DNA of 64,000 nucleotides from Candidatus Undinarchaeales archaeon. Its GTDB lineage: Archaea; SpSt-1190; JASMDC01. This document shows, piece after piece, positions 24,496 through 56,899 of the stretch. The notes beneath the pieces are model-generated. The model was not told the origin of the DNA. It did no database searches and worked only from the letters and a program-made list of their open reading frames with translations. The stretch lies in contig JASMDC010000005.1 in the NCBI GenBank assembly GCA_030753015.1, positions 62,001-126,000 on the forward strand. The letters run 5' to 3'. Position 1 is the stretch's first letter, and the number at the start of each line of letters is the position of its first letter. Made by a program: the position numbers and the translations under genes.

Positions 24496-24517
24496 TCATA
24501 TCGGAGGCTTGGCGCGG

Positions 24518-26496: not shown

Positions 26497-26538
26497 ACCG
26501 ATTGCCTCCACGACGACTATCCCGCACCCCTAAGACTA

Positions 26539-26550
26539 TACATTTAAATT
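26539..26550 (-). promoter_or_regulatory. TATA-like box for crotonase/thiolase
   Basis: Minus strand AATTTAAATGTA lies about 45 bases before the crotonase ATG. A start 26 bases downstream leaves a leader of roughly 20 bases that contains the GGAGG site. The divergent thiolase-like gene at 26682 lies further away and shows small hairpins (26602-26612, 26622-26646) in its leader instead. Confidence 0.45.
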
Positions 26551-26681
26551 CATCTATGCCCTTTTGGCCACTTCCTGCTCGAACACATGACAGAGGACTT
26601 CCCGGAACGGGAGACCTCAAGATCGGGATTGCTGAATCCTCCCGATTGCAAGCAGGAACAGGGAACCGGGGGTAGTACCAA

Positions 26682-27959: not shown

Positions 27960-27960
27960 G

Positions 27961-28461
27961 ATGGCGAAGAGAAAGGAAAGGATCAAACTCCCCGAGACAG
28001 AGGAGGGCACCGTGCTCTTCAACGTGGACCCGATCATAATCAAGCACCATTATGAGGTCGACTACATACACTCCTATGCCCAGGACTCTCCATTCTTTTC
28101 GGGCCTCGCGAAGAAGAAGCTCATGGGGACCAGGTGCACGAAGTGCGGCTACACCTATGCGACCCCCAAGGTCAGCTGCATGATGTGCGGCGCCGAGGCA
28201 GAGTGGATCGAGCTTCCGCTCGTGGGCAGGGTACATACCTGGACGACATGCTACTTCGGGGGCCAGGAGTTCCTGAAGGAGACGCCGTTCAACCTTGCGC
28301 TTATCGAGTTCGATGGGGCCGACACCCTGTTCATGAGCAGAGTGATCGGTGTCAAGGAGGAGGACATGAGGGTCGGGATGAAGGTGAAAGCCCAGTTCCT
28401 GCGGAACCTGAAGTTCAAGCCCACGGACGTGTATTTCGTACCGTTCAAGGGAGATGAATAG
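27961..28461 (+). CDS. DUF35 OB-fold zinc-ribbon acyl-CoA-associated protein
   Basis: Small partner of thiolase-like enzymes, 166 residues. A rubredoxin-like zinc ribbon, CTKCGYTYATPKVSCMMCG, is followed by an OB fold starting at GRVHTWTTCYFGG. DUF35 proteins bind acyl-CoA and bridge thiolase-like partners in archaea and in actinobacterial steroid degradation. One base separates it from the thiolase-like stop codon. The first 50 residues form an extension with helix character. Confidence 0.9.
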   Translation: MAKRKERIKLPETEEGTVLFNVDPIIIKHHYEVDYIHSYAQDSPFFSGLAKKKLMGTRCTKCGYTYATPKVSCMMCGAEAEWIELPLVGRVHTWTTCYFGGQEFLKETPFNLALIEFDGADTLFMSRVIGVKEEDMRVGMKVKAQFLRNLKFKPTDVYFVPFKGDE

Positions 28462-28478
28462 AGAGGACAGGTGATCGA

Positions 28479-29654
28479 ATGGCGTTGTACACAGAAGACC
28501 AGAAGAGGATACTCAAGACATTATATCCTAATGATTTCGAGGACTATGACATCATCCTGCGGACCCTGGACAAGGTAATCGAAAAGGAGGTGCTCCCACG
28601 GGCCGAGGAGGTCGACGGCGAGAAGATATTCCCGAAGGAGGGCATGGATACGCTCTTCGAAGAGGGGCTCGTGTCCATGTCCTTCCCTCCTGAGTATGGA
28701 GGCCTCGGTCTCCCTTACCCGGTGTATATCGCCTGCATGGAACTGGTCTCAAAAGCATGCGCGTCCACGTCGATATCCTTGGCCATACACAGCACCGTCT
28801 GCGAGGGGCTGCGTCTCTTCGCAAGCGAAGAACTGAAGAAGACGTGGTTGCTGGAAAAGGGTCTCCTCGAGGGAAGGTCCCTTGCTGCCTTCGCCCTGAC
28901 CGAACCCGGGTGCGGGTCGGACGCCGGGGCCATCCGTACCAAGGCAAGGCTCGAAGGCGATGAATACGTGATCGATGGTACGAAGACCTTCATTACCAAC
29001 GCCGGAGTGGCTGACGTCTATTTCGTGTTCGCACTGACGGACAACGGCCCGACCGCCTTCCTGGTCGAGGCGGACCGACCCGGGCTCTCCATCGGCAAGG
29101 ATATCCCTAAGGTGGGCGTCAAGGGTACGAAGACCGGTGAGGTGATATTCGAGGACTGCAGGATACCTAGCTCCAACCTCGTCGGTACCGAGGGGAAAGG
29201 ATTCAAACATGCAAAGGAAATGCTCAACAGGGGCCGGCTCACGATCGGTGTCCTCTCGGTCGGTATCGCCCAAGCAGCCCTGGAGAAGGCGCTTCGGTAC
29301 AGCAAGGAAAGGAAGGCGTTCGGTACACCGATCTCCTCCTTCCAGCTCACGCAGGAGAAGTTCGCCAACATGGTCACCGAGATAAACGCGGCACGGCTCC
29401 TGACCTACTATGCGGCCAGCCTCAAGGAACAGGGCGTGCCCTTTGCCTCCGAGGCCGCGCAGGCCAAGCTCTTCGCATCGGAAGCGTCAGTGAGGGCGTG
29501 CGATAACACCATACAGGTACTTGGCGGGTACGGATACGCCGATGAATACGATGTCCACAGACATTGGCGGGATGCCAAGCTCATGACCATCGGCGAGGGT
29601 TCCTCGGAGATATTGCGTCTATTGATCGCCCACATGGCGTTAAAGGCAGTGTGA
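28479..29654 (+). CDS. acyl-CoA dehydrogenase
   Basis: Second FAD acyl-CoA dehydrogenase of the window, 391 residues. AFALTEPGCGSDAGAIRTKA is the family signature, GTKTFITNAG the substrate segment, and IGEGSSEILRLLIA near the C terminus carries the catalytic glutamate. An AGGTGATCG ribosome site lies just before the ATG. It lies between DUF35 and the ETF genes, so it likely reduces the ETF encoded next to it. Substrate not evident. Confidence 0.93.
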   Translation: MALYTEDQKRILKTLYPNDFEDYDIILRTLDKVIEKEVLPRAEEVDGEKIFPKEGMDTLFEEGLVSMSFPPEYGGLGLPYPVYIACMELVSKACASTSISLAIHSTVCEGLRLFASEELKKTWLLEKGLLEGRSLAAFALTEPGCGSDAGAIRTKARLEGDEYVIDGTKTFITNAGVADVYFVFALTDNGPTAFLVEADRPGLSIGKDIPKVGVKGTKTGEVIFEDCRIPSSNLVGTEGKGFKHAKEMLNRGRLTIGVLSVGIAQAALEKALRYSKERKAFGTPISSFQLTQEKFANMVTEINAARLLTYYAASLKEQGVPFASEAAQAKLFASEASVRACDNTIQVLGGYGYADEYDVHRHWRDAKLMTIGEGSSEILRLLIAHMALKAV

Positions 29655-29679
29655 TCGCTGAAAGAGGAGGTATGTTACG

Positions 29680-30426
29680 ATGAAGATCATTGTATGCGTA
29701 AAGATGGTTCCCGACACCACAACTAAGATAGTGGTGGCCGGAAACGGCAAGGACATAGACCGGTCGGGTGTTGAGTACGTCCTCAACCCCTATGACGAGT
29801 ACGCCGTCGAGGAGGCGTTGAGCATCAAGGAGAGGTTCTCGGGGAGCGAGGTCGTAATACTGTCACTGGGTCCGAGCGAAAGCACTAAGACCATCCGGAC
29901 CGCCCTTGCCATGGGCGCTGACAGGGGTGTGCTGCTGAAGGCAGAGAGCACGGACCCGTTCGTTGTCGCAAAGGCCCTGGCCGACGAGATATCATCCATG
30001 GACCCCGGCCTCGTCCTCCTGGGCAAGCAGGCCGTGGACGACGACGCCAACCAGGTGGGAGGGCTCGTAGCTGAGTTCCTCGGGCTCCCCTTCGTGTCGT
30101 CCATCATCAAGCTCGAGATCAGCGAGGACCGTGCCGTCGCCCAGAGGGAGAGGGAGGGCGGCTATGACGTAGTGGAGGTCCCGCTACCCTGCGTTCTATC
30201 GGCCCAGAGGGGGCTGAACGAGCCCCGATACACGACAATGAAGGGGATCATGATGTCAAAGCGAAAGCCCATCGAGGAGAAGGAACCGATCCTCTCCGAA
30301 TCCCTGCTCGAGGTGACCTCCCTCCACCTGCCGCCGCCCCGATCCGGGGGCAAGATCGTGGGCGAGGGAAAGGAGGCCGTCCCCGAGCTCGTGAGGCTCT
30401 TGAAGGAGGAGGCAAAGATACTCTGA
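29680..30426 (+). CDS. etfB: electron transfer flavoprotein beta subunit
   Basis: Small ETF subunit of 248 residues that receives electrons from acyl-CoA dehydrogenases. The N terminus MKIIVCVKMVPDTTTKI, the NPYDEYAVEEAL motif, the nucleotide-binding GKQAVDDDANQVGG and the recognition loop near LPCVLSAQRGLNEPRYTTMKGIM (shown here only by position, about residues 167-190) are all family hallmarks. AGGAGGT lies before the ATG. The alpha subunit follows ten bases later. Confidence 0.95.
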   Translation: MKIIVCVKMVPDTTTKIVVAGNGKDIDRSGVEYVLNPYDEYAVEEALSIKERFSGSEVVILSLGPSESTKTIRTALAMGADRGVLLKAESTDPFVVAKALADEISSMDPGLVLLGKQAVDDDANQVGGLVAEFLGLPFVSSIIKLEISEDRAVAQREREGGYDVVEVPLPCVLSAQRGLNEPRYTTMKGIMMSKRKPIEEKEPILSESLLEVTSLHLPPPRSGGKIVGEGKEAVPELVRLLKEEAKIL

Positions 30427-30436
30427 GGTGATAGAT

Positions 30437-31417
30437 ATGGCGTTCGATATCATCGTTTATGCAGAAAATAAGAAAGATGGCTTCAAGAGGTCCGTGCTGG
30501 AGGCCGTCAGTGAGGGCAGGAGGCTGGCCGACACGTTGGGCTCCGAGCTCTGCGCAGTTGTCATAGGATCCGATGTCGGGGCCCTGGCCCCGGCCCTGGG
30601 TGAGTTCGGGGCGGACCTGGTGCTCGTCGCGGAGGACGAGGGACTGGGAACCTTCTCCCCTGACGGATACTGCGACATACTGGAGCGGGCCATCACTCAA
30701 AAATCATCCTCCATCGTTCTCCTCGATGCCTCGATCCGTGGCAAGGAGCTCGCCGCCAAGCTCTCCGCGCGTCTGAGCGCGGGACTAGCCACGGAGTGCG
30801 TGAATATCGAGATCAAGGATGGGACGCAGGTCGTGGCCACACGACCCCTGTACGCCGGCAAGGCCCTTGTGGATGTGGCCTTCAACTCTCCGATCCGGAT
30901 CATGACCCTGAGGCCGAAGGCGTTTGTGGCCTCCGAGGCCCCCCGGGAGGCTGCCATCGAGAGGATGGAACACGCTCCCGATGAGGGCAGGACAGGGCCT
31001 GTGATCAAAGAGACCATCGATGTCGGTGGGGGTAAGATCGACCTACGTGAGGCGGACATCATCGTCTCGGGCGGGAGAGGTATGAAGAACGGCGAGAACT
31101 TCGCCATCCTCGAGGAGTTCGCTGACCTGCTCGGGGGGGTCGTGGGAGCATCAAGGTCCGCCGTCGATGCGGGATGGAGACCGCACTCCGACCAGGTCGG
31201 GCAAACGGGCAAGGTCGTCTCGCCCAGCCTCTATGTCGCCTGCGGCATATCCGGCCAGATCCAGCACCTTGTGGGGATGAACACGTCCAAGAACATCGTT
31301 GCTATCAACAAGGACCCCGATGCCCCTATATTCGCCGTTGCCGATTACGGGATCGTCGGTGACCTCTTCGATGTCGTTCCCGCCCTTACGGAGGAAGCAC
31401 GAAGGCTCAGGTCGTAG
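30437..31417 (+). CDS. etfA: electron transfer flavoprotein alpha subunit
   Basis: Large ETF subunit of 326 residues. The C-terminal FAD domain is clear: SRSAVDAGWRPHSDQVGQTG, LYVACGISGQIQHLVGM and AINKDPDAPIFAVADYGIVG. An in-frame GTG at 30428 is part of the GGTGAT ribosome site that serves the ATG at 30437. It ends the operon; the convergent ETF:quinone oxidoreductase lies 54 bases downstream. Confidence 0.95.
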   Translation: MAFDIIVYAENKKDGFKRSVLEAVSEGRRLADTLGSELCAVVIGSDVGALAPALGEFGADLVLVAEDEGLGTFSPDGYCDILERAITQKSSSIVLLDASIRGKELAAKLSARLSAGLATECVNIEIKDGTQVVATRPLYAGKALVDVAFNSPIRIMTLRPKAFVASEAPREAAIERMEHAPDEGRTGPVIKETIDVGGGKIDLREADIIVSGGRGMKNGENFAILEEFADLLGGVVGASRSAVDAGWRPHSDQVGQTGKVVSPSLYVACGISGQIQHLVGMNTSKNIVAINKDPDAPIFAVADYGIVGDLFDVVPALTEEARRLRS

Positions 31418-31471
31418 CGGGCACGGAAGCTTTAGGGGCTCGATCCCCGGACCACATGGTCCCTGTAAGGA

Positions 31472-33175
31472 TCACATCATCGTGTATTTCGGCCCGCCCC
31501 CGCCCTCCGGCGGTACCCACGTGATGATCTCGTAGGGATCCTTCACGTCACAGGTCTTGCAGTGGACACAGTTGGAGAAATTGATCTTGAGCGTGGGCTT
31601 GCCCGTCTCCTCGTCGACCTCCATCTCGTAGACATTGGCCGGGCAGAACCTCGTGCACGGATTCTGGTATTCCTTGGTGCACTTAGTGTAGCAGATGCTT
31701 GTGTCCGCCACTCTGAGGTGGGGCGGTTGCTTCTCCTCGTGGATGGTCCCGGAATGGTACACGTCCGTCTCCTTGTTGAAGGTCCGCTTCCCATCGAACG
31801 CGATGATGCCCTTCTCCTCGTCCGTGGGCGAGTCCGTCCCATAGTGATCGGCCACCGTTCTCAGGGATGTGTAATCGGGTTGCGCTCCGAGGCGGGCCTT
31901 GAGGAACCGCCCCCCAAAAAGGAACTGGAACCCTCCCCTGACCAGCCCGGCCCACAATCCCTGGTGGAAGGCTTGGTGGAAGTTGCGCGATCTGTAGAGT
32001 TCTTGGCCGACATCGCTTCCGAGGAGTGAGTCAGCGTAGCCTTTGAGCACGGCCTCCGAGAACTCGTTCTTCTTGATGGCCTCGAAGATGGAGTCTGCGG
32101 CCAGCATCCCGGACCTCATGGCCACATGGATCCCCTTGAGCTTCTGGCTGATGAAGAGGCTTGCTGAGTCCCCGACGATGAGCCCGCCCTCAAAGGTGAG
32201 CTTCGGGATGGAGAAGTACCCGCCCACGGGGGCGGTCTTTGCCCCGTACTGGAGGGGCTTCCCTCCCTCGAGCAGGCCGCCGATGAAGGGATGGAGCTTG
32301 TACTTCTGGAACTCGGAATGGGGGTCCAGGAATGAATCCTTGTAGTCCAGGCCGGTCATGAGCCCCAGGGCGACCCGGTCGTTCTTCATGCCATAGATGA
32401 ACCCTCCCCCGTAGGTACTGCTCTTGTGGGGATAGCCCATGGTGTGGATGACCTCTCCCGGCTCGATCCTTCCCTTCGGGACCTCCCACACCTCCTTCAC
32501 TCCGAGCACGTAGCTCTGGGGGTTCTTCCCCTTGTCCAGATCGAATCGGTCGATGACAGCCTTGGTGAGGCCCCCCCGGGACCCCTCTCCGAACACGGTG
32601 ACCTTGGCGTGGAGGTCGATCCCCGACTCGAAATTGGCCTTCTTGTTGCCGTCCGCATCGATCCCGTTATCCCCCGTCCTGACACCGATCACCCGGTCCC
32701 CGTCGTACAGTACTTCCGTGGCCGCAAAGCCGGGGAAGACGTCGACGCCGTTCTCCTCGACCAGCCGACCCATCCATTCGGTCAATCTGGAGAGTGAGAC
32801 CACATAGTGGCCGCGGTTGTCCATGGGAGGGGGTGTGAACGGGAGCCCTATCTTCCAGCCCTTCGTCAGGAAACAGACCGCCTCCTTCCGGACCTCACCC
32901 TCCAGAGGCGCATCCTTCTCCAGGAAGTCCGGGACGAGCTCCTTGAGGGCACTCGGATCAAGGACCGCCCCGGAGATGCTGTGGGTGCCCACGGAAGAGG
33001 CCTTTTCCAGCAGGGCGATCATGGGCTCGTCGATCCTCTCTCCCTCACCCTCCTGCTCGACCTTCTCGTTGTGTTTTCTAATGAGGTTCGTAAGATGGAG
33101 CGCCCCGCTCAGGCAAGCGATGCCGCCGCCCACGAAGAGCACGTCCACCTCCATGATCTCCCGCTCTTCTTCCAT
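31472..33175 (-). CDS. electron transfer flavoprotein:quinone oxidoreductase
   Basis: Membrane-associated FAD/4Fe-4S enzyme that moves electrons from ETF to quinone, 567 residues, the length of the one-chain ETF-QO form. VDVLFVGGGIACLSGALHL is the FAD motif, GLIVGDSASLFISQKLKGIH the second FAD contact, and the C terminus has the ferredoxin-like cluster site CPANVYEM...CVHCKTCDVKDP. GGAGGGCTGATC lies before the ATG at 33175. Together with the ETF genes it shows that acyl-CoA oxidation feeds a respiratory quinone pool. Confidence 0.93.
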   Translation of the reverse strand: MEEEREIMEVDVLFVGGGIACLSGALHLTNLIRKHNEKVEQEGEGERIDEPMIALLEKASSVGTHSISGAVLDPSALKELVPDFLEKDAPLEGEVRKEAVCFLTKGWKIGLPFTPPPMDNRGHYVVSLSRLTEWMGRLVEENGVDVFPGFAATEVLYDGDRVIGVRTGDNGIDADGNKKANFESGIDLHAKVTVFGEGSRGGLTKAVIDRFDLDKGKNPQSYVLGVKEVWEVPKGRIEPGEVIHTMGYPHKSSTYGGGFIYGMKNDRVALGLMTGLDYKDSFLDPHSEFQKYKLHPFIGGLLEGGKPLQYGAKTAPVGGYFSIPKLTFEGGLIVGDSASLFISQKLKGIHVAMRSGMLAADSIFEAIKKNEFSEAVLKGYADSLLGSDVGQELYRSRNFHQAFHQGLWAGLVRGGFQFLFGGRFLKARLGAQPDYTSLRTVADHYGTDSPTDEEKGIIAFDGKRTFNKETDVYHSGTIHEEKQPPHLRVADTSICYTKCTKEYQNPCTRFCPANVYEMEVDEETGKPTLKINFSNCVHCKTCDVKDPYEIITWVPPEGGGGPKYTMM

Positions 33176-33485
33176 GATCAGCCCTCCATGACATCCGGCA
33201 AGGCACCTAGTTCCAAGGATTAGACTTTAAATCTCACGTTTTTTCGGCCCCTCTCCTCGCAGGATCTCACAAGGTCCCGCGATCATCACGCGGCTTCGGG
33301 CGGGGATGACAAACGGGTGAGGGGAGATACCCTGTCACGATCGGTCCGACAGGGGCACGGTCCGGGAAAACTCATCCCTCGGGCTGATAGAGTTTTAATA
33401 TTTCGAGGCGTTATGCCTTGATTTGCACATCGTAAATGAAAAATCTTAAAAGCGTTTTAATTTTCATCAGGCACCGGTCATAACA
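33176..33485. other. divergent intergenic region, ETF-QO and acyl-CoA synthetase
   Basis: 310 bases without a gene. TTTAAAGTC (minus strand, about 33221-33229) is a TATA candidate for ETF-QO. On the plus strand AATCTTAAAAGCGTTTTAAT (33441-33460) lies 26-45 bases before the synthetase ATG and TTTTAATATTTC is at 33393-33404. An inverted repeat CCCTGTC/GACAGGG sits in the middle (33330-33354) and may be an operator. Confidence 0.5.
33330..33354. promoter_or_regulatory. inverted repeat CCCTGTC-N11-GACAGGG
   Basis: Perfect 7-bp arms at 33330-33336 and 33348-33354. Its place in the shared control region of two fatty-acid genes suggests a binding site for a regulator of acyl-CoA metabolism; no regulator gene is next to it. 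Confidence 0.35.
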
Positions 33486-35132
33486 ATGGGAGAAACGAGC
33501 GGATTCGATTATGATGATAAGGTCTCGGACTGGAACTGGGATGTCCCAAAGAAATACAACATGGGCTACGATTGTTGTGATCGGGTGGCAGATGATCCCG
33601 CGACCAGCAATAAGGTCGCCCTGTACTGGGAGAACGAGAAGGGGGAAGAGAGAAGATTCACGTTCCTTGAAATGAAGAACCTTAGCAACAGGTTCGGGAA
33701 TGCCCTCAGGAAGCTGGGCTTCTCGAAGGGCGACCGCTTTCTCATGCGTCTTCCGAACGTCCCGGAGTTCCAGATGGTATTCCTCGGGGGTGTGAAGATA
33801 GGTGCCGTGCCGATCCCGTCCAGCACGATGTTCAAGGCCAAGGAGATCGAGTACCGGATCCTGGACTCGGATGCGATCGCGGTCATAACGACCCCCGAAG
33901 GGATGGAGGATGTCGACAAGATCAAGGGCAACTGCCCGACACTGAAACACATTATCATTGTTGGAGATGAGCTGAAGGAGGGGGAGCTCTCCTTCTATGA
34001 CCTGATAGAGAACGAGTCTACCGAGCTGGAGATCGAGGATACGGATGCCGAGGACATGGCTTTCTTCTGCTACACCTCAGGGACCACAGGGATGCCCAAG
34101 GGCGCAGTGCATGCGCACCGGTGGGTCATCGGGAACGATCCCGCTTCACAATACTGGCAGACCTATCGGCCGGACGATATCATGGCACACACGGGGGCGC
34201 TGAACTGGATCTTCCCACTGGGTAACGCGTTCCTGTACGCATGGAGGCACAAAACTACCGTCTTTCTGTACGATGGGAGGTTCGAACCCGAGATCTGGTT
34301 CTCGCTGCTGGAGAAGTACAAGGTCACGAACCTTGCTTCGGTCCCGACCTGCTACCGGATGTTCTTAACGATAGAGGACGCGGAGAAGAGATACGATCTG
34401 GGCGCCCTCAGGCACTGCATAAGCGCGGGCGAGCCTCTGAACCCCGAGGTGGTCAAGGAATGGAGGGAGAGGTTCAACTGCGAGATCCTCGACGGTATCG
34501 GGATGACCGAGGTCATGGTGTACCTCTCCAACATCACGGACATGCCGATCAAGCCGGGCTCCTGCGGCAGGCCCCAGCCGGGCCATGTATGCGAGATCGT
34601 GGACGACGACGCGAACCCCGTTCCGCCGAATGTCCCCGGCACCCTCGCAGTAAGCCAGGACGATCCCGGTCTGTTCAAGGAGTACTGGAACAAGCCCGAG
34701 AAGACGAGCAAGAGCTTCAAGAACGGATGGTTCCTGAGCGGCGACACCCTGTATAAGGACAAGGAGGGCTACTTCTGGTTCTCTGGCAGGGGTGACGACC
34801 TCATCATGACCGCGGGATACAGGGTCTCGCCCTTCGAGGTGGAGAGCGTGGTGAACCACCACCCCGCCGTCCTCGAGTCCGCGGCGGTCGCATCGCCTGA
34901 CGAGGTCAGGGGGGTCATCGTCAAGTCGTTCATCATACTGAACGAGGGTTACGAACCTTCGGACGAGCTCGCCAAGAACATCCAGCGGTTCGTGAGGAAG
35001 AACACGGCTCCATACAAGTACCCGAGGGAGATCGATTTCGTCGAATCCCTCCCAAAGACCCAGAGCGGAAAGACGAAGAGGAAGCTGCTTCGCGAAAAGG
35101 AGATCGAACAGAAGATGGCCCCGGGGCCATAG
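33486..35132 (+). CDS. AMP-forming acyl-CoA synthetase (medium-chain/benzoate type)
   Basis: ANL ligase of 548 residues that activates a carboxylic acid to its CoA ester. FCYTSGTTGMPKGAVHAHRW is the ATP loop, GDTLYKDKEGYFWFSGRGDD the hinge and SLPKTQSGKTKRKLL the catalytic lysine segment. The length and the SAGEPLNPEVVKEW motif are those of medium-chain/benzoate-CoA ligases. No ribosome site is seen; AT-rich boxes 26-45 bases before the ATG suggest a very short leader. Arginine codons are mostly AGG/AGA as in the genes to its left. A paralogous ligase follows. Confidence 0.9.
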   Translation: MGETSGFDYDDKVSDWNWDVPKKYNMGYDCCDRVADDPATSNKVALYWENEKGEERRFTFLEMKNLSNRFGNALRKLGFSKGDRFLMRLPNVPEFQMVFLGGVKIGAVPIPSSTMFKAKEIEYRILDSDAIAVITTPEGMEDVDKIKGNCPTLKHIIIVGDELKEGELSFYDLIENESTELEIEDTDAEDMAFFCYTSGTTGMPKGAVHAHRWVIGNDPASQYWQTYRPDDIMAHTGALNWIFPLGNAFLYAWRHKTTVFLYDGRFEPEIWFSLLEKYKVTNLASVPTCYRMFLTIEDAEKRYDLGALRHCISAGEPLNPEVVKEWRERFNCEILDGIGMTEVMVYLSNITDMPIKPGSCGRPQPGHVCEIVDDDANPVPPNVPGTLAVSQDDPGLFKEYWNKPEKTSKSFKNGWFLSGDTLYKDKEGYFWFSGRGDDLIMTAGYRVSPFEVESVVNHHPAVLESAAVASPDEVRGVIVKSFIILNEGYEPSDELAKNIQRFVRKNTAPYKYPREIDFVESLPKTQSGKTKRKLLREKEIEQKMAPGP

Positions 35133-35161
35133 GCTCTATGTGCGAGATCGAGGGGAACGCT

Positions 35162-36805
35162 ATGAAAGACTTACGTCCGAACATGGAGGATTACGAGAAG
35201 ACCCGCAACGAGTTCAAGCTCGAAGTGCCCGAGTACTTCAACTTCGGATTCGACGTTGTCGATCAGTGGGCCGAGGACCGCACGAAGCTCGCTCTGGTGT
35301 CGGTCAATCCGGACGACACCGTGCAGAAGCACACCTTCTGGGACATCAAGACCGGTTCGAACCGCGTCGCGAACGTGCTCAAGAAGCTCGGGCTCAAGAA
35401 GGGCGACCGCGTGTTCATCATGCTACCCCAGTGCGCTGAGTGGTACATGTGCATGATCGGCATGTTCAAGCTCGGTATCGTGCCCATGCCGGCGACCGCC
35501 ATGTGCACCGCCAAGGACGTCGAGTACCGCATCAAGACCGCAGGTGCCGTCATGGCCATCAGCGATGGAGTGGGCGCCGTCAAGGTCGATGATGTGTTCG
35601 ACGATCTGGACTGCCTTACCAAGCGCATGGTCCTGGGTGACAAGCGTGAAGGCTGGCTCTCCTACGATGACGAGGTCGCCGGTGCATCCTTGCAGCTCGA
35701 GGGCGTCGAGAAGACGAGGTCCGACGATACCCTTCTCCTCTACTTCACCTCCGGGACCACATCCTACCCCAAGATGGTGCTTCATACACAGGCGTCGTAT
35801 GGCATCGCTCACCGCATCACGGCCACGTTCTGGCAGGACCTCAAGCCCACCGATCTTCATTGGACCATGTCCGATACCGGGTGGGCCAAGGCTGCCTGGG
35901 GCAAGCTCTTCGGGCAGTGGACCGTCGGTGCCGCCGTGTTCCAGCTCGAGGGTAAGTTCGACGCTAAGCGGACGCTCGGAGCGATGCAGAACTATGGCAT
36001 CACGACCTTCTGTGCGCCGCCCACGGTGTACCGTGTGATGGTGAACGCTGACCTAAAGGCCTTCGACCTTTCCGACCTGCGCCACTGCATGGCTGCCGGA
36101 GAGCCGCTGAACCCAGAGGTCATGCGCATCTGGAAGGAGGGCACCGGTACGCACATCTACGACGGGTACGGCCAGACCGAGACCGTGAACCTCGTGGCCA
36201 ACTACCGGTGCCTGCCGATCAAGCCCGGGTCCATGGGCAAGCCCACGCCCGGGTTCTACGTTTCCGTCATCGACGACGAAGGTAATGAGGTCCCCCCGGA
36301 CACGGAGGGCCATATCGCCGTTCGCGTGAAGCCCGAGCGCCCCGTGGGGCTGTTCAAGGAGTATTGGATGGAGCCTGACAAGACCGCTAGCGCCTATATG
36401 GGCGACTGGTACCTCACTGGCGACAAGGCCTACAAGGACACTGACGGTTACCTATTCTTCGTCGGACGAGTGGACGACGTCATCATCACGTCGGGCTACC
36501 GCATCGGTCCCTTCGAGGTCGAGAGCGCGCTGCTCGAGCATCCTGCCGTGCAGGAGTCGGCCGTGGTCGCTGCACCTGACAAGACCCGCGGTGAGGTCGT
36601 GAAGGCCTTTGTCATCCTTGCCCCAGGTTTCGATGGGAACGACGATCTGGTCAAGGAACTGCAGACCCACGTGAAGACGGTCACAGCACCCTACAAGTAC
36701 CCTCGCCGTATCGAGTTCGTCACCGAGCTCCCCAAGACCATCAGCGGCAAGATCCGCCGCGGTGAGCTCAAGGAGCGCGAGTGGAAGGACTGGAAGATCA
36801 AGTGA
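35162..36805 (+). CDS. AMP-forming acyl-CoA synthetase, tandem paralogue
   Basis: Second ANL ligase, 547 residues, same family as the preceding gene (YFTSGTTSYPKMVLHTQASY, GDKAYKDTDGYLFFVGRVDD, ELPKTISGKIRRGELK). The loop SGTTSYPK replaces the usual SGTTGxPK. An ATG at 35138 is in frame, but GAGGGG at 35150-35155 fits the ATG at 35162. Its codon use differs strikingly from the upstream paralogue: arginine is almost always CGC/CGT with a single AGG, like the genes to its right. So it is either a later arrival or the first gene of a different genomic background. Substrate unknown. Confidence 0.9.
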   Translation: MKDLRPNMEDYEKTRNEFKLEVPEYFNFGFDVVDQWAEDRTKLALVSVNPDDTVQKHTFWDIKTGSNRVANVLKKLGLKKGDRVFIMLPQCAEWYMCMIGMFKLGIVPMPATAMCTAKDVEYRIKTAGAVMAISDGVGAVKVDDVFDDLDCLTKRMVLGDKREGWLSYDDEVAGASLQLEGVEKTRSDDTLLLYFTSGTTSYPKMVLHTQASYGIAHRITATFWQDLKPTDLHWTMSDTGWAKAAWGKLFGQWTVGAAVFQLEGKFDAKRTLGAMQNYGITTFCAPPTVYRVMVNADLKAFDLSDLRHCMAAGEPLNPEVMRIWKEGTGTHIYDGYGQTETVNLVANYRCLPIKPGSMGKPTPGFYVSVIDDEGNEVPPDTEGHIAVRVKPERPVGLFKEYWMEPDKTASAYMGDWYLTGDKAYKDTDGYLFFVGRVDDVIITSGYRIGPFEVESALLEHPAVQESAVVAAPDKTRGEVVKAFVILAPGFDGNDDLVKELQTHVKTVTAPYKYPRRIEFVTELPKTISGKIRRGELKEREWKDWKIK

Positions 36806-46316: not shown

Positions 46317-49271
46317 TCACTGTCGTTGCTGTGGTTGGGTTTGTTGCTGTTGTCGCTGATAATAGTCGTAGCGATAATAAGGCCGATTGTATTGATAGGA
46401 GCCATAGGCGCTCTGCTGTGCCTGGTAACCGGCCCCTCTTGCTTGGGCCGGACCTGCCGACGTGGCAGCCTGTACTGCTGCTGAGGCCGCCTTCGTCTTG
46501 GCCGCCGCCTGCCGCGAGATGACGAACAGTCCAGCACCACTGGCAAGTACCGCAAGGATGCCTACGAACATGATGAAACGTCCCCACCCGCCCTCTTCCT
46601 TAGGCACGGACGTGGCGAGCGTGCGGAAGGTCTCCATCTCGGTGCGGGCCTGGACGAGGTGGGCCTGTGCCCCCATCATGTCCCCTGCATCGGCCAGTCG
46701 ACGGGCCTCTTCGAGCTCGTCCTGAGCGGTCTTGAGATGGTTCTGGAGACGCTCCTCGAGCAAGGCGAACTGTGTCGAGCTCACCTCCTTCTTCATGGTA
46801 GCGAAGCGCTCCAGCTCGACCTCGATGTTCCCCTCCGCCTCATTGAGCTCCTCGCCGAGACCCTTTGCGATCGCTTTCTCATCACCTATTGAGACCGTCA
46901 CGGTCCCGCTCCCCTTCGGTCCCTCCTTGGAGACGACCTCCACCTTGGCGGTGAAGCTCCCCTGCTCCTCTATGGCGAAGGATACGGTGAATGTCGCATG
47001 GGCGCCCGTAGGGATGGCCGCCACCCGGTTCTTGTCGGGCTTGCCCGGGATACCGGTGAGGTTCAGGAGAACGTCGTGGAGCTCCACGCTCCCCGTGTTC
47101 CGCACCCTGATAGTGAACGAGCCCTCCTCACCTATCGTGACGAACACCGTTCCCGTTGGGAGGTCGACCGACATGGACGGTACGCACTCGCAATCGCCGG
47201 AACAGCTCTTGCAGTCCTCGCCTGGCTGGCAGGTGCCATCACCACAGTAACCGCTCTCGGACATCACCTCGACCTCGTAGAGCGCGTACTGCGACTCGAG
47301 CCCCGTCCGCTGGATCTCGATACGTGCCTTGTAGGTCCCGGTCTCTGTGTATTTGGGCACGGTCACCGTGGCGTAGAGCTCGGTTGTAGCTCCCTTGAAG
47401 AGAACAGGATGGGCGTCCTCCAGGGTGGTCCAGTCCGCCGCGGCACCCCAGGCGATCAGCTTCACCGGGACATCAGCACTCCCCTCGTTCTTCACGGAAA
47501 TCGTGACGGTGACGGTACCTCCGGGCGATGTGCGTACGACCTCCGGCTCCTTGGGCACGAGCAGTCGCTGCTCCTCCTCGGCGCCGCAATCGACAGGGCA
47601 CGTGTCGCCGTTCTCCTCCCCCTCGCACCGCTCGTCACCGCACACGACAGCAGCGCAGCCGGCCGCGTCGGCCTGATCGCGTCCGATGTCGCACACATTG
47701 TCACTTGTGCATGCACAGTCCACTGAGATGGCGCACGTCTCGTTGTGGTAGGCAGAGCATTCACCGTCACCCAGACAGTCGTCTGTTCCGCAGTCGATGC
47801 AATGGCTGGCGCACTCGCCCCGATCGCGTTCGCATACGCCGTTCCCGCATCGCTCGTTGTAGCAGCCTTTCTCGGTGGCGTTGACGTGGTCGGGCACGCA
47901 CTGCCAGTCCGTAGGGCACGTGCACTGGTCCGGCGCGCTAGCGCAATCCTCACCTATGGCGGGGTTGCACATGGAATCGGCCTTGCAGATGGTCAAGTTA
48001 CAGTCAGCGCATCCTGCCCCGCACTCGCCCAGGTCCACATCGCACACATTATCACCGCACTCCCTGAAGAAGCAGCCGGTGACGTTCGCCCGTGGCTCGG
48101 CCGGGTCGCACAGCGCGCCTTGGAGGCAGGGACAGTCGATGGATGAATTACAGTTCTCCCCGGCCTTGAGGTTGCATTCAGGATCTCGGGCGCACACAGT
48201 GACGTTGCATCCTATGCACCCCTGAGCACATTCGCCGAAGCTGGTGGTGTTCCCGCTCACCAGGTCCTTCACCTCGAAGTCGCATATATCGTCCGTGCAC
48301 GTGACAAGGAAGCAGCCCTGGCTGTTCGACCTTGGATCAGCGGGATCACAGAGACCATCGGCCGCGCAGGCGCAGTCCGGCGAGGTGTCGCACCGCTCTC
48401 CCAAGGCAAGAGTGCATGCGCCGTCTCCAGCGCACTGGGTGATATTGCAGTCGACACACCCGGCAAGGCACTCACCCGCATCACACACGCCATTACCACA
48501 GTCGGGACTGTAGCATCCGCGAGGTGTGCTGGCCTGTGCCCCCGGTTCGCAGCTCCAACCACCCGGGCATGGGCAGAGGTCAGGATCGTTCTCGCAGGTG
48601 AGCCCAGCATCGATATCGCACGAGAGCTTCTGCGAGATCCTGAGCTCGATGTCGAGGAGACCTATTGGCGCTTTCTCGACAGCGAATGTCACTGCAAGGG
48701 ATCCGTCGCCGAGGAAGGTGACATTGGGTGGTGTCCGCGAGCTGTGGATAAGAGTGATGTTGCCGTCCCTTGAAGGAGCGAACACTTCCCCATCGGTGGT
48801 GCGGTAGCCCAATGGCTCCATGTCTATCACCGCCAGCCTCACGGTCCCCCCGCCCTCGAGAGGGAGGATGCCGAACAAGGTCCAGACCACGTCCCCGCGC
48901 GACATTGGAACGGCGGCATCGTACTCCACGGCCACCACCTGCGAACGTCCACGAAGGAGCGGTTCGTTCAGTGCCACGACCAGCCCGGTACCAACGCCCG
49001 TGGGCGCGACTCGCACGTTCAGAGGTTGCTCCCGATCGAACGCGACGAGACTTGGTTCATCCACTGGGAAGGGTGACTCAATCCACCACTCCTCCAACTG
49101 CTCACCCTCGGCGCAGCATGTAAGGTTCGCCGCTACGAGCACATGGACATATTCACGTCCGTGGACATCTACCTCCCATGCCACCTCCGCCAGAGCCGGG
49201 ACGGTGAGCAGGCTCACGATGACGAGCATCTGTGCGGCCGCCAGGCCCGGACGTTGTGGTATCGGGTTCAT
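46317..49271 (-). CDS. very large surface protein: Cys-rich repeats, CARDB/NEW3-like domains, C-terminal anchor
   Basis: 984 residues. A signal peptide covers 1-28 (MLVIVSLLTVPALA). Residues 30-210 are a beta-rich domain. About 215-575 hold tandem cysteine-rich units of the type CGNGVCDAGECLAGCVDCN, repeated about five times. Two Ig-like CARDB/NEW3-type domains follow (about 595-700 and 725-800, with a further CGDGTCQPGEDCKSC unit between), then a coiled coil (about 815-890), a single membrane helix (FIMFVGILAVLASGAGLFVI) and a Gln/Tyr/Arg-rich cytoplasmic tail. This is the plan of an archaeal surface receptor or adhesin. It lies nine bases after the other Cys-rich gene in the same operon. 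Confidence 0.85.
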   Translation of the reverse strand: MNPIPQRPGLAAAQMLVIVSLLTVPALAEVAWEVDVHGREYVHVLVAANLTCCAEGEQLEEWWIESPFPVDEPSLVAFDREQPLNVRVAPTGVGTGLVVALNEPLLRGRSQVVAVEYDAAVPMSRGDVVWTLFGILPLEGGGTVRLAVIDMEPLGYRTTDGEVFAPSRDGNITLIHSSRTPPNVTFLGDGSLAVTFAVEKAPIGLLDIELRISQKLSCDIDAGLTCENDPDLCPCPGGWSCEPGAQASTPRGCYSPDCGNGVCDAGECLAGCVDCNITQCAGDGACTLALGERCDTSPDCACAADGLCDPADPRSNSQGCFLVTCTDDICDFEVKDLVSGNTTSFGECAQGCIGCNVTVCARDPECNLKAGENCNSSIDCPCLQGALCDPAEPRANVTGCFFRECGDNVCDVDLGECGAGCADCNLTICKADSMCNPAIGEDCASAPDQCTCPTDWQCVPDHVNATEKGCYNERCGNGVCERDRGECASHCIDCGTDDCLGDGECSAYHNETCAISVDCACTSDNVCDIGRDQADAAGCAAVVCGDERCEGEENGDTCPVDCGAEEEQRLLVPKEPEVVRTSPGGTVTVTISVKNEGSADVPVKLIAWGAAADWTTLEDAHPVLFKGATTELYATVTVPKYTETGTYKARIEIQRTGLESQYALYEVEVMSESGYCGDGTCQPGEDCKSCSGDCECVPSMSVDLPTGTVFVTIGEEGSFTIRVRNTGSVELHDVLLNLTGIPGKPDKNRVAAIPTGAHATFTVSFAIEEQGSFTAKVEVVSKEGPKGSGTVTVSIGDEKAIAKGLGEELNEAEGNIEVELERFATMKKEVSSTQFALLEERLQNHLKTAQDELEEARRLADAGDMMGAQAHLVQARTEMETFRTLATSVPKEEGGWGRFIMFVGILAVLASGAGLFVISRQAAAKTKAASAAVQAATSAGPAQARGAGYQAQQSAYGSYQYNRPYYRYDYYQRQQQQTQPQQRQ
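47547..48629 (-). repeat. tandem Cys-rich protein repeats
   Basis: Roughly five coding repeats of about 65 codons. Each unit contains CGxxxCDxxxGEC, then CxxCNxTxC, GExCxxSxDCxC and a GC pair (for example GECGAGCADCNLTICKAD and GECASHCIDCGTDDCLGD). Unit lengths and spacers vary, so they are old duplications rather than recent copies. Confidence 0.65.
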
Positions 49272-49280
49272 GGTCCTCTC

Positions 49281-52200
49281 CTACTCGATGGCACAGTCCT
49301 CCGGGCAGGCAAGAACGTCCTCGCCAAGGACACAGGCGCCATCACCGCACACGGCGTCCGCCGAGGCAGCTGAACCGTACAGGCTGTAAGGCTCGGCCGG
49401 AGCGGAGGGTGCAGCACTGACTGCCTGGGAGATGCACCGGTTGGCAACGCACAGGCATGACGTGGGGGCCGCATCGGGCTTCATACAAACGATCCCGGTG
49501 CAGTCCTCGACCTCATCGTACCGGCGGTTGAGACAGGTGGCCGCCTCGACGTCGCAACAGGCGTCAGCATGGACGCAGTCTGTGTCGGTCTCGCAGTACT
49601 CCGCAGGCGATACGGCCTCGGCCACACACTGTCCTTCGACGCATGCTGGCGCCCAGCGCTGAGCGGCCACGTCGGACGGCGTGGTGCAGGCACAGCTCGC
49701 CTCGCATACGACGGGCAACCGGGAGAACCGGTTGACGAACCTGGGCGGCCCGCACTCGCAGCATCCCGGTTGCTGGACGCAGTCCGCAGTACGGCGGCAG
49801 AACTCGGGATCAAGATAGGCATCGTCCAGATAAGTACGCTCACAGTCCATGCCCACATGTATGATAGTTAATGCCTTCGAAAGGCCGCATCGGGCGTCGT
49901 CAGGCGGGCATTCCTCAAAGCCCGCGCCTTTGAACCGCACGAGCGACTTGCATGCATGGAGCACTGCGATATTGTCCACACAGGCCCCCTCCTCAGGGAG
50001 CACGTCCTCGTCCCCCTGCTGCCGGGCGACGGCGCATGCACCTTCTGGGCCATTACACCCGGCGAGGCAGCGGGTCTTCCCAGCATCCTCGGCCGTACTG
50101 CACGCGGCCTTGCACGCCGTCACACCATCAGGATCGGTCGAGCCGCATTCCGAAAGACATGTGCCGACGGTCCCTACCGAGGTTGACATGCACGAATCCA
50201 CACAGGTCCGGATACTCTGGAGGTAGGCCGTAGCCGCACAGCGCTCAGTGCAGGCGGACCCCCACACGGCTTTGCGGGCAGTGCAAGCCGCGGTGCAGGC
50301 AGTGAAAGCTCCCTGCTCCTTGATCCGACAGTTCTCGTCGTTCTGTTCGTAGTCGTCCAGAGCGCGCCATGCCTCGGAAGAGGTGCATGAACGCTGGCAC
50401 TTGTCCGCAAGCGTCGAGTGGCCCGAGCACCGTCCCGTACAGATGCCGACCATGCATGCGCTGTAATCCTCGTCGGTATCAGCACACGCCCTCCTGCCCT
50501 CCTGGATGCCACCATAGGCATCCCAGCCCTGGATTGTCCCACATGCGTCCCTGCAGCGCTCCCCGACATCCAGGGAGGAGCTGCATGCCGATAGGCACTT
50601 ATCCCGGAGGCATCCCTCGTGGTCGCCGCCGGATCCGCTGCACGCGGTCCGCGCCGCTGTATAGTCCCCGTAGGCGGTGAGCCCCTCGAAGGGTGTCTTG
50701 CAGTCCTTCGCGCATATCGCGCTCTTGTCCAGCTCTCCCTGGCAGGTTTCCATACAGCGTTGCCCCATGCACGTCGCGAAGGTTGCATGGTTCGCGCACG
50801 CATCGTCCCGCAGGCCGTGGTCGGTCCAGCCATCCGGGCCAGCGCAGGCCACGCCGCACAAGGTCTGGAGGTTCGAACTGGCCTCGCAGTCTGTCCGGCA
50901 AAGAGAGGTCATACACTCGCTGTAGCTCGGAGGCGGGGACGAGCGACAGTGCTCGATGCACACGTCGTCCACGGCAGGCGCGAGCACCACGTCAGCGACG
51001 GTCTCCCCCAGCCTCGTGACCCCTGCGGCCACTAAGATCGAGAATGGGCCATAATCCCGTATATCGGCGTCATCGTAATCTGGTTTAAAGGTGAGGATGC
51101 GGGCTTCGGGATCCTTTACCTGGAGGGAGGCGGTCCGAGTATCGGCGTCGATGGACTCGAGCGTGATCTCGTATCCTTTGTACGTAATGGGCACGCCGCG
51201 CGAGAGGGTACGCTGCTCGGCCACTCCTAAACGTGGGCGGAGAGTCGCATTGCAGAGGATGTCGCACTTGCCCTGCTGTGCTTGAAGGCACGGCAAGACG
51301 CATGGAATGACCTCGGCGCTCTCCGCGTTCCGGCATGTCTGCTCGCACTCACTGGCCGCGAACGCGCAATCGTTCTCGCACAGGCTCCGCGACAGGGTGG
51401 CTGTCTCACGGCATTCTCTCTCACAATTACTGGTCAGCCATGGCTGAGGTAGCTCAAGGAAATTGAGTTGGAACTCCGCCCAGTCACGGCCCATGCCCAC
51501 GGGGATCGCGTGCGAGCTGGAGAGTGGACCCGCCACGCCCTGGCATCTTATGGCCGCCCCCACCAGCTCGTTCCCAAGATCGACGAGGGAATCCATAGGA
51601 AGGAAGGTGCCTGTGCACCCGGCACCCGGACATACGCCCTGATGGGCAACACCGACGCCAACACAGGCCGCGTCACAGGCTGTAGGATACGTTTCCCCGT
51701 CCGAACCGCACACCGGTTCATACAGATCGGGACACACACACTGTGGTTCGTCGTTGACGCACACGCCGTCCATGCACGCGCAGGTGTGGACTGTCGGGCA
51801 GGACCTCAGGCACTCAAGGCCGTCAGCATTTGCGGGAGAGCACGAGCAGGAGCATGACGAGAACGAGCAGTCCTGATCGGTAGTGCACTCGTCGGCCACA
51901 CCGAAGGTCCCCGTCAGCTCGCGTGCCTGGGTACGCACCCGGTCGGCGATATCGTGCGCCTTGTACTGGACTAGCTCCAGGGCGATATCGTCGAGAGCGC
52001 GGACCACGGCCTCCATGGTCCGGGAGTTCTCTAGCGAGAGAGCGCTGTCGGGCTCACAGGCGATTACTGGGCCGAACGTCTCCGCTCGGGCCTCGCGGAA
52101 ATACACGTCCTTGACCGACCAGTCTAACACGTCCACAAGGACGAGAATAGTGCCGTAAACGGGGCACTGGGTAAGGCAGGGACCGGCCGAGCGGACGCTC

Positions 52201-52982
52201 GTACCAGCGCACCTGGCCAGACAGGGATTGGCATAGGTGATCCAGTCCTCCCCGCACACGGGTGCCGTCACGACCGGGCACTGGCACAGAGCACAGAGCT
52301 GGTCCCGGCCTGTCTCGGCAGCGGCAGCGTCCTTATCGCTGAGAGGTACGGTGCAGCTCGTCTCCAAGGGAACGAAGCTCAGGGCGATTATGTTGTCCCG
52401 GGCATAGGGAGGGATATGGATGGTATACTTTTGCTTGTTCAGAAGGTCCGCCGATAGGGGCTTGATAAGCTCGTGGGCGAGGGCCACGCTCTTGAGCCGG
52501 TCCTTCTCTCCAGCAGAGAGGCTCGCAAGCGTCGCCGGGCCGGGCCTGCCCTGCCCTGATGCGGGCATCTTGCGGTATGTGAGCTCGAGGATGTTCACCT
52601 CGCCCTTCACGTCCGCGGTGACCCGCAGCATCAGGACGAGCCCACTATCGAGCGTCGTTCGGTAATAGACGTTGACGGTCTTGACACCCGTCCCCCCCAC
52701 ATCCCTGACGAACGCACGTGAGATGCTCGGTTCGATGCTGGATAGGTCGGCTCCAGCTTCCTCGAGAGATGAGAAGAACGCCTTCATGATACCGTTATTG
52801 GCAAGGCTTTCCACCAGGGCCGTGCGTTGGCTCGCTGGCAACACCTGTGCCTCAGGTCGCTGGGCGAGCACCTTGGCCCGGTTCTCCTTGACTAGGTCGA
52901 GGAGGTTCCCGGCAACGGTGCAGGAAACAACCAGCATGATCGTCAACAGGATTTCGAATGTCCTACCCATGTCTAATCCCAT
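49281..52982 (-). CDS. giant secreted Cys-rich protein with Kazal-like domains
   Basis: 1233 residues with a signal peptide (ILLTIMLVVSCTVAG) and no later membrane helix. Residues 30-210 form a domain without cysteines. Two Kazal-type inhibitor-like domains follow: about 230-269 (CPVVTAPVCGEDWITYANPC) and 414-451 (CPDLYEPVCGSDGETYPTAC). The region of about 500-1000 has many CxxxC pairs (CMGQRCMETC, CLRDKCLSAC, CMVGICTGRC) that look like a helical disulfide array. The C terminus ends CGDGACVLGEDVLACPEDC, a unit shared with the downstream surface protein. A TATA box 25 bases before the ATG at 52982 supports a leaderless start. A protease-inhibiting or surface-lattice role is a guess. Confidence 0.82.
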   Translation of the reverse strand: MGLDMGRTFEILLTIMLVVSCTVAGNLLDLVKENRAKVLAQRPEAQVLPASQRTALVESLANNGIMKAFFSSLEEAGADLSSIEPSISRAFVRDVGGTGVKTVNVYYRTTLDSGLVLMLRVTADVKGEVNILELTYRKMPASGQGRPGPATLASLSAGEKDRLKSVALAHELIKPLSADLLNKQKYTIHIPPYARDNIIALSFVPLETSCTVPLSDKDAAAAETGRDQLCALCQCPVVTAPVCGEDWITYANPCLARCAGTSVRSAGPCLTQCPVYGTILVLVDVLDWSVKDVYFREARAETFGPVIACEPDSALSLENSRTMEAVVRALDDIALELVQYKAHDIADRVRTQARELTGTFGVADECTTDQDCSFSSCSCSCSPANADGLECLRSCPTVHTCACMDGVCVNDEPQCVCPDLYEPVCGSDGETYPTACDAACVGVGVAHQGVCPGAGCTGTFLPMDSLVDLGNELVGAAIRCQGVAGPLSSSHAIPVGMGRDWAEFQLNFLELPQPWLTSNCERECRETATLSRSLCENDCAFAASECEQTCRNAESAEVIPCVLPCLQAQQGKCDILCNATLRPRLGVAEQRTLSRGVPITYKGYEITLESIDADTRTASLQVKDPEARILTFKPDYDDADIRDYGPFSILVAAGVTRLGETVADVVLAPAVDDVCIEHCRSSPPPSYSECMTSLCRTDCEASSNLQTLCGVACAGPDGWTDHGLRDDACANHATFATCMGQRCMETCQGELDKSAICAKDCKTPFEGLTAYGDYTAARTACSGSGGDHEGCLRDKCLSACSSSLDVGERCRDACGTIQGWDAYGGIQEGRRACADTDEDYSACMVGICTGRCSGHSTLADKCQRSCTSSEAWRALDDYEQNDENCRIKEQGAFTACTAACTARKAVWGSACTERCAATAYLQSIRTCVDSCMSTSVGTVGTCLSECGSTDPDGVTACKAACSTAEDAGKTRCLAGCNGPEGACAVARQQGDEDVLPEEGACVDNIAVLHACKSLVRFKGAGFEECPPDDARCGLSKALTIIHVGMDCERTYLDDAYLDPEFCRRTADCVQQPGCCECGPPRFVNRFSRLPVVCEASCACTTPSDVAAQRWAPACVEGQCVAEAVSPAEYCETDTDCVHADACCDVEAATCLNRRYDEVEDCTGIVCMKPDAAPTSCLCVANRCISQAVSAAPSAPAEPYSLYGSAASADAVCGDGACVLGEDVLACPEDCAIE

Positions 52983-53096: not shown

Positions 53097-53297
53097 CTAC
53101 TTCTCGATCTTGAAGGCGACCTTCACGGTCACTTCGTACTGGACTATCTTGCTCTCCTTCACGCGAACGCGAGCATTGCCAACATCCATGTACTCGATGC
53201 CATGGAGGCTCTTCTCGGCCTCAGAGAGTGCGTTCCGAACGGCCTCCGAGAAACCCTCTTCTGAGGTGCCAATCAATTCAATTACTTTGTATACCAT
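53097..53297 (-). CDS. dodecin
   Basis: Small flavin-binding storage protein that forms dodecamers, 66 residues. YKVIELIGTSEEGFSEAVRN is the typical N-terminal strand and helix, and GNARVRVKESKIVQYEVTVK the closing strands. The frame is open to a TTG at 53318, but the ATG at 53297 begins the family sequence. It lies alone before the Lrp gene; both run on the minus strand with about 90 bases between. Confidence 0.92.
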   Translation of the reverse strand: MVYKVIELIGTSEEGFSEAVRNALSEAEKSLHGIEYMDVGNARVRVKESKIVQYEVTVKVAFKIEK

Positions 53298-55387: not shown

Positions 55388-56899
55388 GTGGAAAGGCACA
55401 TCGCTGCCACGGGATCCGTCCTTGCAGTTGCTCTGCTCGCCCATCGGATGACGGCGTCAGCGGCCTACCTCCTTCTTGGAAGCAGGTTCGTTGTGGCTCT
55501 GGGACTGGCGGCCCTCCCTACGCTCATTGCGATACCCGCCCTCGCTTGTCACGTAAAGCCAACATCATCCCGTCGTCTTCCCCTTGTTCTCTTCTTGGCC
55601 ATTCTGGCTCTCCTCCTACCCTTCCCCGTGTCCCTGACCGGGCCTCTCGTGCTTCTACTGGACGTAATGCTGCTCATCTGCCTGTTCGTACGCTTACGCC
55701 CCCATGGCCTGTCCGGTGCCGTTCCCGTGCTCCTCGCCTGTGCTCTGATCTCGTCACTGGTGCACTACACCGACGGCATCCCCCCGACCATGGTGGTTGA
55801 CGCACGTCTCCTCCCTCCAGATGTACGGGCTGATGCCACAGCACTCTCTCGCCCTGTGACTCCTGATGAGCTCGATGAAGTAGCTGAGTTGTTCGCTCAC
55901 CTTACAGGTGAACGTGTAGAGCGAACACGGGACGGATTCCATCTCCACGATTTCTCCTTTCATGTACTCCCCGCTGAGGACTACACTGCGGTCCTGGCCG
56001 CCGTGTTCGGGAGCCCGCCGGAGGAGATGGTGGTCCATACATTGGAGCAGCCAGCAGTCTTCTTCGGTATGGACGCCTATCTCGGTGGATCCAAGGAGCA
56101 GGTGCTTAGAAGGGCCATGCACGAGTACGGCCATATCGTGGACACGCGCGCTTTCGGGAGGACATCCCACGCAGCCATCGTGGAGGGTTTTGCCCGTTCG
56201 TTAGAAGAGGTCGCCATGCATGCGTTGTATGAGCGAGAGAAGGCAAAGGCGCCTCCGGCAAAGAGGCAGACGGATGATGTTCGAGAGGTCGCTTTCGAGC
56301 GGGTGAAGAAGGCAATGATGGCTACTCCGGCACAAGAGGTCGTGTTGAACTCACGTCCCACTCTTCGTGCAACACGTCACCGCATCCAGGTCATCGAGTA
56401 CTATATCACGCCCAAGAACCACTTCAGCCGCGCGCTCTTCTGGGACGACGTTCCCGAAGGGAGCCCTGAACGTGTGCGAGCACTGACAGAGGTGTTCCTA
56501 GCGGTGTTCCCCTTCTCTCCCCGCTCGGCCGAGCTACCCTCCAGCTTTCGACAAGAAATGATGCTTCTGAAGCAAGCGGCCGAATCACTTCGCGACCGGC
56601 CCATGTGGATGTCACGCAGGGCATTCCTTGAGGAGTGGATCGGTGGTCATCGTACACGGATAGCGCGCCCCTTATCAGCCGCCATAATCCCATTGTTCCG
56701 AATCCCCCGATCTAGTTATCGGGCTGGAGTAGTGCTCTGGTGTACACTGATATCCGTAATCGTGCTCGTCAGCATCGTCGCGCTGGACAGGATGGCAGCA
56801 AAGATTGAGGTGATGTTGATGCTCTGGACAGATACCTCCTCAACGGTTCCCGATATCGTCGGGGATATCGGCTCGACCGCGTTCCACCGCTCCACATAA
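55388..56899 (+). CDS. membrane protein with HExxH metallopeptidase motif
   Basis: 503 residues. About four hydrophobic helices occupy the first 135 residues, followed by a soluble domain with AMHEYGHIVDTRAF (HEYGH at residues 245-249), a zinc-metallopeptidase motif; EGFARSLEEVAMHAL downstream offers a glutamate third ligand. One more membrane helix (VLWCTLISVIVLVSIVAL) lies near residue 460. The active site would sit on one face of the membrane. No known peptidase family was recognised. The GTG start is fixed by a TATA box 25 bases away. The stop codon lies inside the promoter block of the next gene. Confidence 0.68.
   Translation: MERHIAATGSVLAVALLAHRMTASAAYLLLGSRFVVALGLAALPTLIAIPALACHVKPTSSRRLPLVLFLAILALLLPFPVSLTGPLVLLLDVMLLICLFVRLRPHGLSGAVPVLLACALISSLVHYTDGIPPTMVVDARLLPPDVRADATALSRPVTPDELDEVAELFAHLTGERVERTRDGFHLHDFSFHVLPAEDYTAVLAAVFGSPPEEMVVHTLEQPAVFFGMDAYLGGSKEQVLRRAMHEYGHIVDTRAFGRTSHAAIVEGFARSLEEVAMHALYEREKAKAPPAKRQTDDVREVAFERVKKAMMATPAQEVVLNSRPTLRATRHRIQVIEYYITPKNHFSRALFWDDVPEGSPERVRALTEVFLAVFPFSPRSAELPSSFRQEMMLLKQAAESLRDRPMWMSRRAFLEEWIGGHRTRIARPLSAAIIPLFRIPRSSYRAGVVLWCTLISVIVLVSIVALDRMAAKIEVMLMLWTDTSSTVPDIVGDIGSTAFHRST

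Follow-up and report, generated by a model that had tools for sequence, protein, structure and literature searches.

LDTI-type Kazal domains in a giant cysteine-rich, predicted secreted protein of an Undinarchaeales archaeon

The 64,000-nucleotide stretch of DNA analysed here (the window) encodes a giant cysteine-rich protein containing two genuine Kazal folds. The corresponding open reading frame (49281-52982, minus strand, as are all modules of the protein given below) is intronless, specifies 1233 amino acids including 107 Cys (8.7%) and shows a codon-position base composition similar to that of the neighbouring genes. Regarding location, disulfide state and inhibition, we infer, at slightly less than even confidence, a secreted, disulfide-stapled and S-layer-associated envelope protein, in which the first domain (Kazal-1) is perhaps active and the second (Kazal-2) probably serves as scaffold. 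Kazal proteins are already known from archaea, and what is notable here is architecture and context. New are the linked paralogous pair, the selection acting on the Kazal-1 core, the S-layer-related domain, the 6-Cys repeats and the DsbA-type genes.

Both Kazal segments proposed in the first-pass annotation were confirmed, at 52170-52289 (Kazal-1, aa 232-271) and 51630-51743 (Kazal-2, aa 414-451). Within the 1233-aa protein, the Pfam profiles PF07648 (3.8e-8) and PF00050 (1.1e-5) scored above their curated cut-offs in two stretches each, and both domains also matched the Pfam Kazal profiles individually. Among sequences of solved structures searched with phmmer, Kazal-1 (aa 232-271) matched the inhibitor LDTI (1an1, 1.4e-9), and aa 415-451 of Kazal-2 matched a silk protease inhibitor (2m5x/4hgu, 5.2e-5). 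Furthermore, the strict six-Cys Kazal pattern occurs twice in the protein and in 0 of 20,000 shuffles of the same protein. The six Cys are spaced as in LDTI (C-x-C-x7-C-x10-C-x3-C-x10-C), with seven residues separating Cys II and III in Kazal-1 and Kazal-2.

The structure prediction is in line with these results. An AlphaFold model of aa 1-509, built from two sequences, has low overall confidence (pLDDT 42) and is poor beyond the Kazal segments; despite this, the predicted Kazal segments superpose on LDTI (1an1_I; 51% identity, TM 0.87 by target, rmsd 1.3) as well as on the silk inhibitor (4hgu; 45% identity, TM 0.80), showing the beta-beta-alpha-beta Kazal fold. In alignment with LDTI, the sequences of the two domains contain the C-x3-C helix as CLARC and CDAAC. 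Two disulfides bridging such a C-x3-C helix are the hallmark of non-classical group II Kazal domains (PMC3082530). Judged by sequence, Kazal-1 and Kazal-2 are LDTI-type, non-classical group II domains, with the bridges themselves predicted. Kazal-1 shares with LDTI (PDB 1an1/2kmo) 51% identity over 39 residues, and the likeness extends to the identical six-Cys spacing, the C-x3-C helix and the same predicted fold. In contrast, LDTI is a stand-alone inhibitor of 46 residues whose P1 is Lys, whereas the archaeal domains are embedded in a 1233-aa protein and possess P1 Val (Kazal-1) and P1 Asp (Kazal-2).

Kazal-1 features the reactive loop C235-P-V237(P1)-V-T-A and, at P15', the loop-holding Asn252. 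Val at P1 is beta-branched and is no general-purpose P1 residue. Based on P1 Val and canonical loop geometry, Kazal-1 would probably be able to fill the active site of a serine protease of the elastase or subtilisin type, and it may be a working inhibitor. In Kazal-2, the loop reads C417-P-D419(P1)-L-Y-E and P15' is occupied by Thr434 in place of Asn, which is present in 39 of 39 Kazal domains of other archaea and in 11 of 13 of the source genome. Because of its P1 Asp and the missing P15' Asn, Kazal-2 is more likely to represent a structural module or scaffold than an inhibitor.

A paralogue of the protein, comprising 1455 residues and three Kazal domains, was observed on a second contig (C36), where it is linked to a 646-residue paralogue of the neighbouring partner protein described below. 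The two Kazal proteins share 33% identity over the first 509 residues, distributed unevenly: the N-terminal domain (aa 26-228, 52299-52907), which matches no known family, shows 27% identity, and the Cys cluster between the two Kazal domains (aa 366-410, 51753-51887) shows 53%, while the Kazal-1 core reaches 81% as compared to 27% in flanking domains. This core holds 20 consecutive residues identical in both paralogues (PVCGEDWITYANPCLARCAG, aa 241-260, 52203-52262), of which only 7/20 codons agree, as do 1/10 four-fold third bases, synonymous sites being saturated. Since the residues are identical while synonymous sites differ, the Kazal-1 core is under protein-level selection, that is, kept by purifying selection and not by recent copying; gene conversion as source of the 20-residue identity was rejected on the basis of the codon differences.

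The positions P1-P3' differ completely between the paralogues (VVTA vs TDEK, all four positions). Kazal inhibitors are known for hypervariability at 10 of their 12 contact residues, with P3 Cys and P15' Asn remaining conserved (PMC1236909). The difference matches this pattern, albeit with a sample of two and considering that exposed residues also vary without function. That the conserved stretch leaves out P1-P3' would also suit a coat or matrix without inhibition, in which the two Kazal domains serve only as structural disulfide modules, comparable to follistatin-type matrix proteins; this explanation is regarded as a substantial possibility, though not the expected one. It is consistent with the position of the Kazal domains among many unrelated disulfide modules, with the unusual Trp-Ile (DWITY) of the Kazal-1 stretch as a possible packing surface, and with the loss of P15' Asn in Kazal-2. 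Moreover, follistatin was the top Foldseek match of the two-Kazal region (E 8.8e-3, poor superposition), and it likewise represents Kazal modules within large disulfide-rich extracellular proteins. However, no FOLN/EGF module was found beside the archaeal Kazal domains by Pfam, and the sequence relation to such matrix proteins is confined to Kazal. Furthermore, Kazal-1 and most other Kazal domains of the genome retain the exact length of the loop as well as P4' Pro and P15' Asn, which argues against a purely structural role.

Outside the Kazal domains, the protein is composed of further, mostly Cys-rich modules. The N-terminal signal peptide (approximately aa 1-25, 52908-52982; second Met at aa 5 as alternative start) is the only hydrophobic segment, and no membrane anchor was detected, which agrees with the secretion proposed in the first-pass annotation. 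The remaining chain contains 106 Cys, an even number, and about 53 disulfide bonds are predicted to hold the protein together. Downstream of Kazal-2 follow CX3C pairs (aa 520-577, 51252-51425), a Cys-free domain (aa 580-675, 50958-51245), four tandem 6-Cys repeats (aa 671-873, 50364-50972), further CX3C pairs (aa 896-976, 50055-50297) and C-terminal Cys clusters (aa 1040-1217, 49332-49865), which have a counterpart in the C36 paralogue at 33% identity. The protein ends with the motif CGDGACVLGEDVLACPEDC (aa 1212-1230, 49293-49349), and similar motifs were observed in protein P0002 and other Cys-rich proteins of the genome. The unit of the tandem repeats, ending in C-x4-C-x3-C-x9-C-x3-C, is predicted to form a helical hairpin (pLDDT 78). 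The model of this unit had no match among solved structures, and a genome search with its profile gave no further hits that rose above noise; the repeats were therefore not assigned to a named family, e.g., alpha-hairpinin or CHCH. An NCBIfam search with the 1233-aa protein returned nothing. Relatives of the whole protein were found neither in the genome contig collection (queried with the protein or the alignment of both paralogues) nor in the viral contig collection (queried with the two-paralogue alignment).

The Cys-free domain provides a connection to the cell envelope. Its residues 587-639 are homologous to a domain located internally in the S-layer protein encoded on contig C25 (PF05124, 1.6e-18), and an iterative search places domains from four more large surface proteins of the genome in the same group. 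The relation is limited to one domain at about 32% identity: in contrast to the archaeal S-layer family PF05124, whose member in this genome shares the internal domain, the Kazal protein is Cys-rich and does not match the PF05124 profile. Based on this common domain, the disulfide-linked coat suggested in the first-pass annotation gains support.

The partner gene (46317-49271, minus strand) starts 9 bases downstream of the Kazal gene and is probably co-transcribed with it. Its product, 984 aa in length and rich in Cys (66 residues), combines NEW3 and CARDB domains with a transmembrane anchor at the C-terminus. On C36, a membrane protein with sensor-like organization (L022:4238-5308) is encoded between the two paralogues; it contains a DUF7343 winged helix inside, and its outside domain is homologous to the N-terminus of the partner. 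C36 also harbours two adjacent giant open reading frames (24000-35267; L060), one of at least 1651 aa with 8.4% Cys and the other of about 2100 aa with 9.8% Cys. Both are full of CX3C-type pairs and are mutually related as judged by eye; the one that was scanned had no Pfam match. Directly upstream of the Kazal gene in the window, a small open reading frame (53097-53297, minus strand), whose product we take by eye to resemble dodecin, is followed by a terminator-like hairpin.

Oxidative folding of the protein is probable considering its Cys content, the even number of mature Cys and the presence of several DsbA-like proteins. The DsbA-like profile PF13462 matched on six contigs, four of the matches being clear, and at least four proteins of the genome possess DsbA-type domains. 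Among these, a 771-residue protein (L056:4370-6682) carries a hydrophobic segment at its N-terminus along with two DsbA domains in tandem, each containing a CPFC motif. Other DsbA-type multi-domain reading frames were noticed on contigs C59 and C92. No match to VKOR or DsbB for reoxidation of DsbA was obtained in the genome, and none of ten scanned neighbours of the Kazal gene was a disulfide gene.

In the mechanism proposed here, the signal peptide would export the 1233-aa protein, and membrane-anchored DsbA-type proteins would oxidise the exported chain to a series of small disulfide-stapled modules, namely two Kazal domains, Cys clusters and CX3C helical hairpins. These modules would surround the domain in common with the cell's S-layer protein. 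The Kazal protein would probably reside in or under the S-layer alongside its membrane-anchored partner, and both would probably contribute to a protease-resistant coat.

Thirteen Kazal matches were detected on five contigs of the source genome, representing 13 distinct core sequences (reactive loop to helix) with 9 distinct P1 residues. Such diversity of loops, together with the missing membrane anchor of the Kazal protein itself, could point to many targets and to a released anti-protease, either offensive or defensive against neighbouring cells or regulating the cell's own exoproteases. This is considered improbable, as Kazal domains account for only about 80 of 1233 residues, the S-layer-related domain and the anchored partner suggest attachment, and no protease occurs among the Pfam-identified neighbours of the Kazal gene. 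A nearby membrane protein without Pfam match (55388-56899, plus strand) contains an H-E-Y-G-H motif and is a possible metalloprotease, which would be no Kazal target. A broader proposition, rated as rather unlikely, is an archaeal anti-protease coat made of giant surface proteins with about 100-200 Cys, which would be oxidised by tandem DsbA proteins and bear at least 13 Kazal domains with loops selected against many foreign proteases.

Regarding distribution, the nine other genomes of the phylum yielded no Kazal domains. The claim that they are unusual in archaea was not upheld as stated: 34 of 394 sampled archaeal genomes, the source genome included, contain a Kazal match, and arCOG10350 is an already published Kazal annotation of a sponge thaumarchaeon (PMC6697440). 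Kazal domains are scattered across archaea, uncommon but not exceptional. The known archaeal examples (arCOG10350 of sponge Thaumarchaeota, PMC6697440; a Kazal-cupredoxin protein of genome G054) likewise represent Kazal domains in predicted archaeal proteins; in contrast to the domains described here, the C-x-C start is missing from most of them and the loops of many are ovomucoid-like, e.g., TMEY, and the few proteins that were inspected showed no comparable Cys array. Another archaeal genome of 1.1 Mb (G026, contig C21) contains an open frame of 7533 codons with seven Kazal domains. Within the source genome, contig C39 encodes two tandem paralogous giant proteins of about 2100 aa with one Kazal domain each, adjoining genes that by eye are paralogous to neighbours of the C36 Kazal gene, and a further divergent Kazal domain in a frame of 2653 codons (C39:29841).

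The source genome (3.85 Mb, 117 contigs) far exceeds the nine other genomes of its phylum (0.6-1.1 Mb); either it belongs to a large, free-living representative of an otherwise reduced group, or the bin is composite. It is regarded as archaeal because it contains the RNA polymerase domain PF04567, which among the controls matched only the four archaeal ones; an SSU rRNA gene was not found in it. Genome size, a contamination estimate of 5% and the varying GC content of sampled stretches (53-64%) would be compatible with eukaryotic or bacterial DNA assembled or binned into an archaeal genome. Such an artefact is nevertheless very improbable and was already disfavoured, given that the reading frame is intronless and is surrounded on its contig by housekeeping genes of prokaryotic type, that paralogues exist on a second contig, that 33 other archaeal genomes contain Kazal domains, and that the protein shares a homologous block with the PF05124 S-layer protein, relatives of which are present in each of the phylum's nine other genomes.

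Kazal inhibitors have so far been studied mainly in animals and oomycetes. Kazal-1, located inside an apparent envelope protein, is a small archaeal domain suited to expression, and it is 51% identical to an inhibitor of solved structure. With this domain, the use of canonical serine-protease inhibitors by archaea becomes directly testable. Moreover, the findings suggest a disulfide-rich coat for this archaeal lineage, whose genome is unusually large within its phylum.
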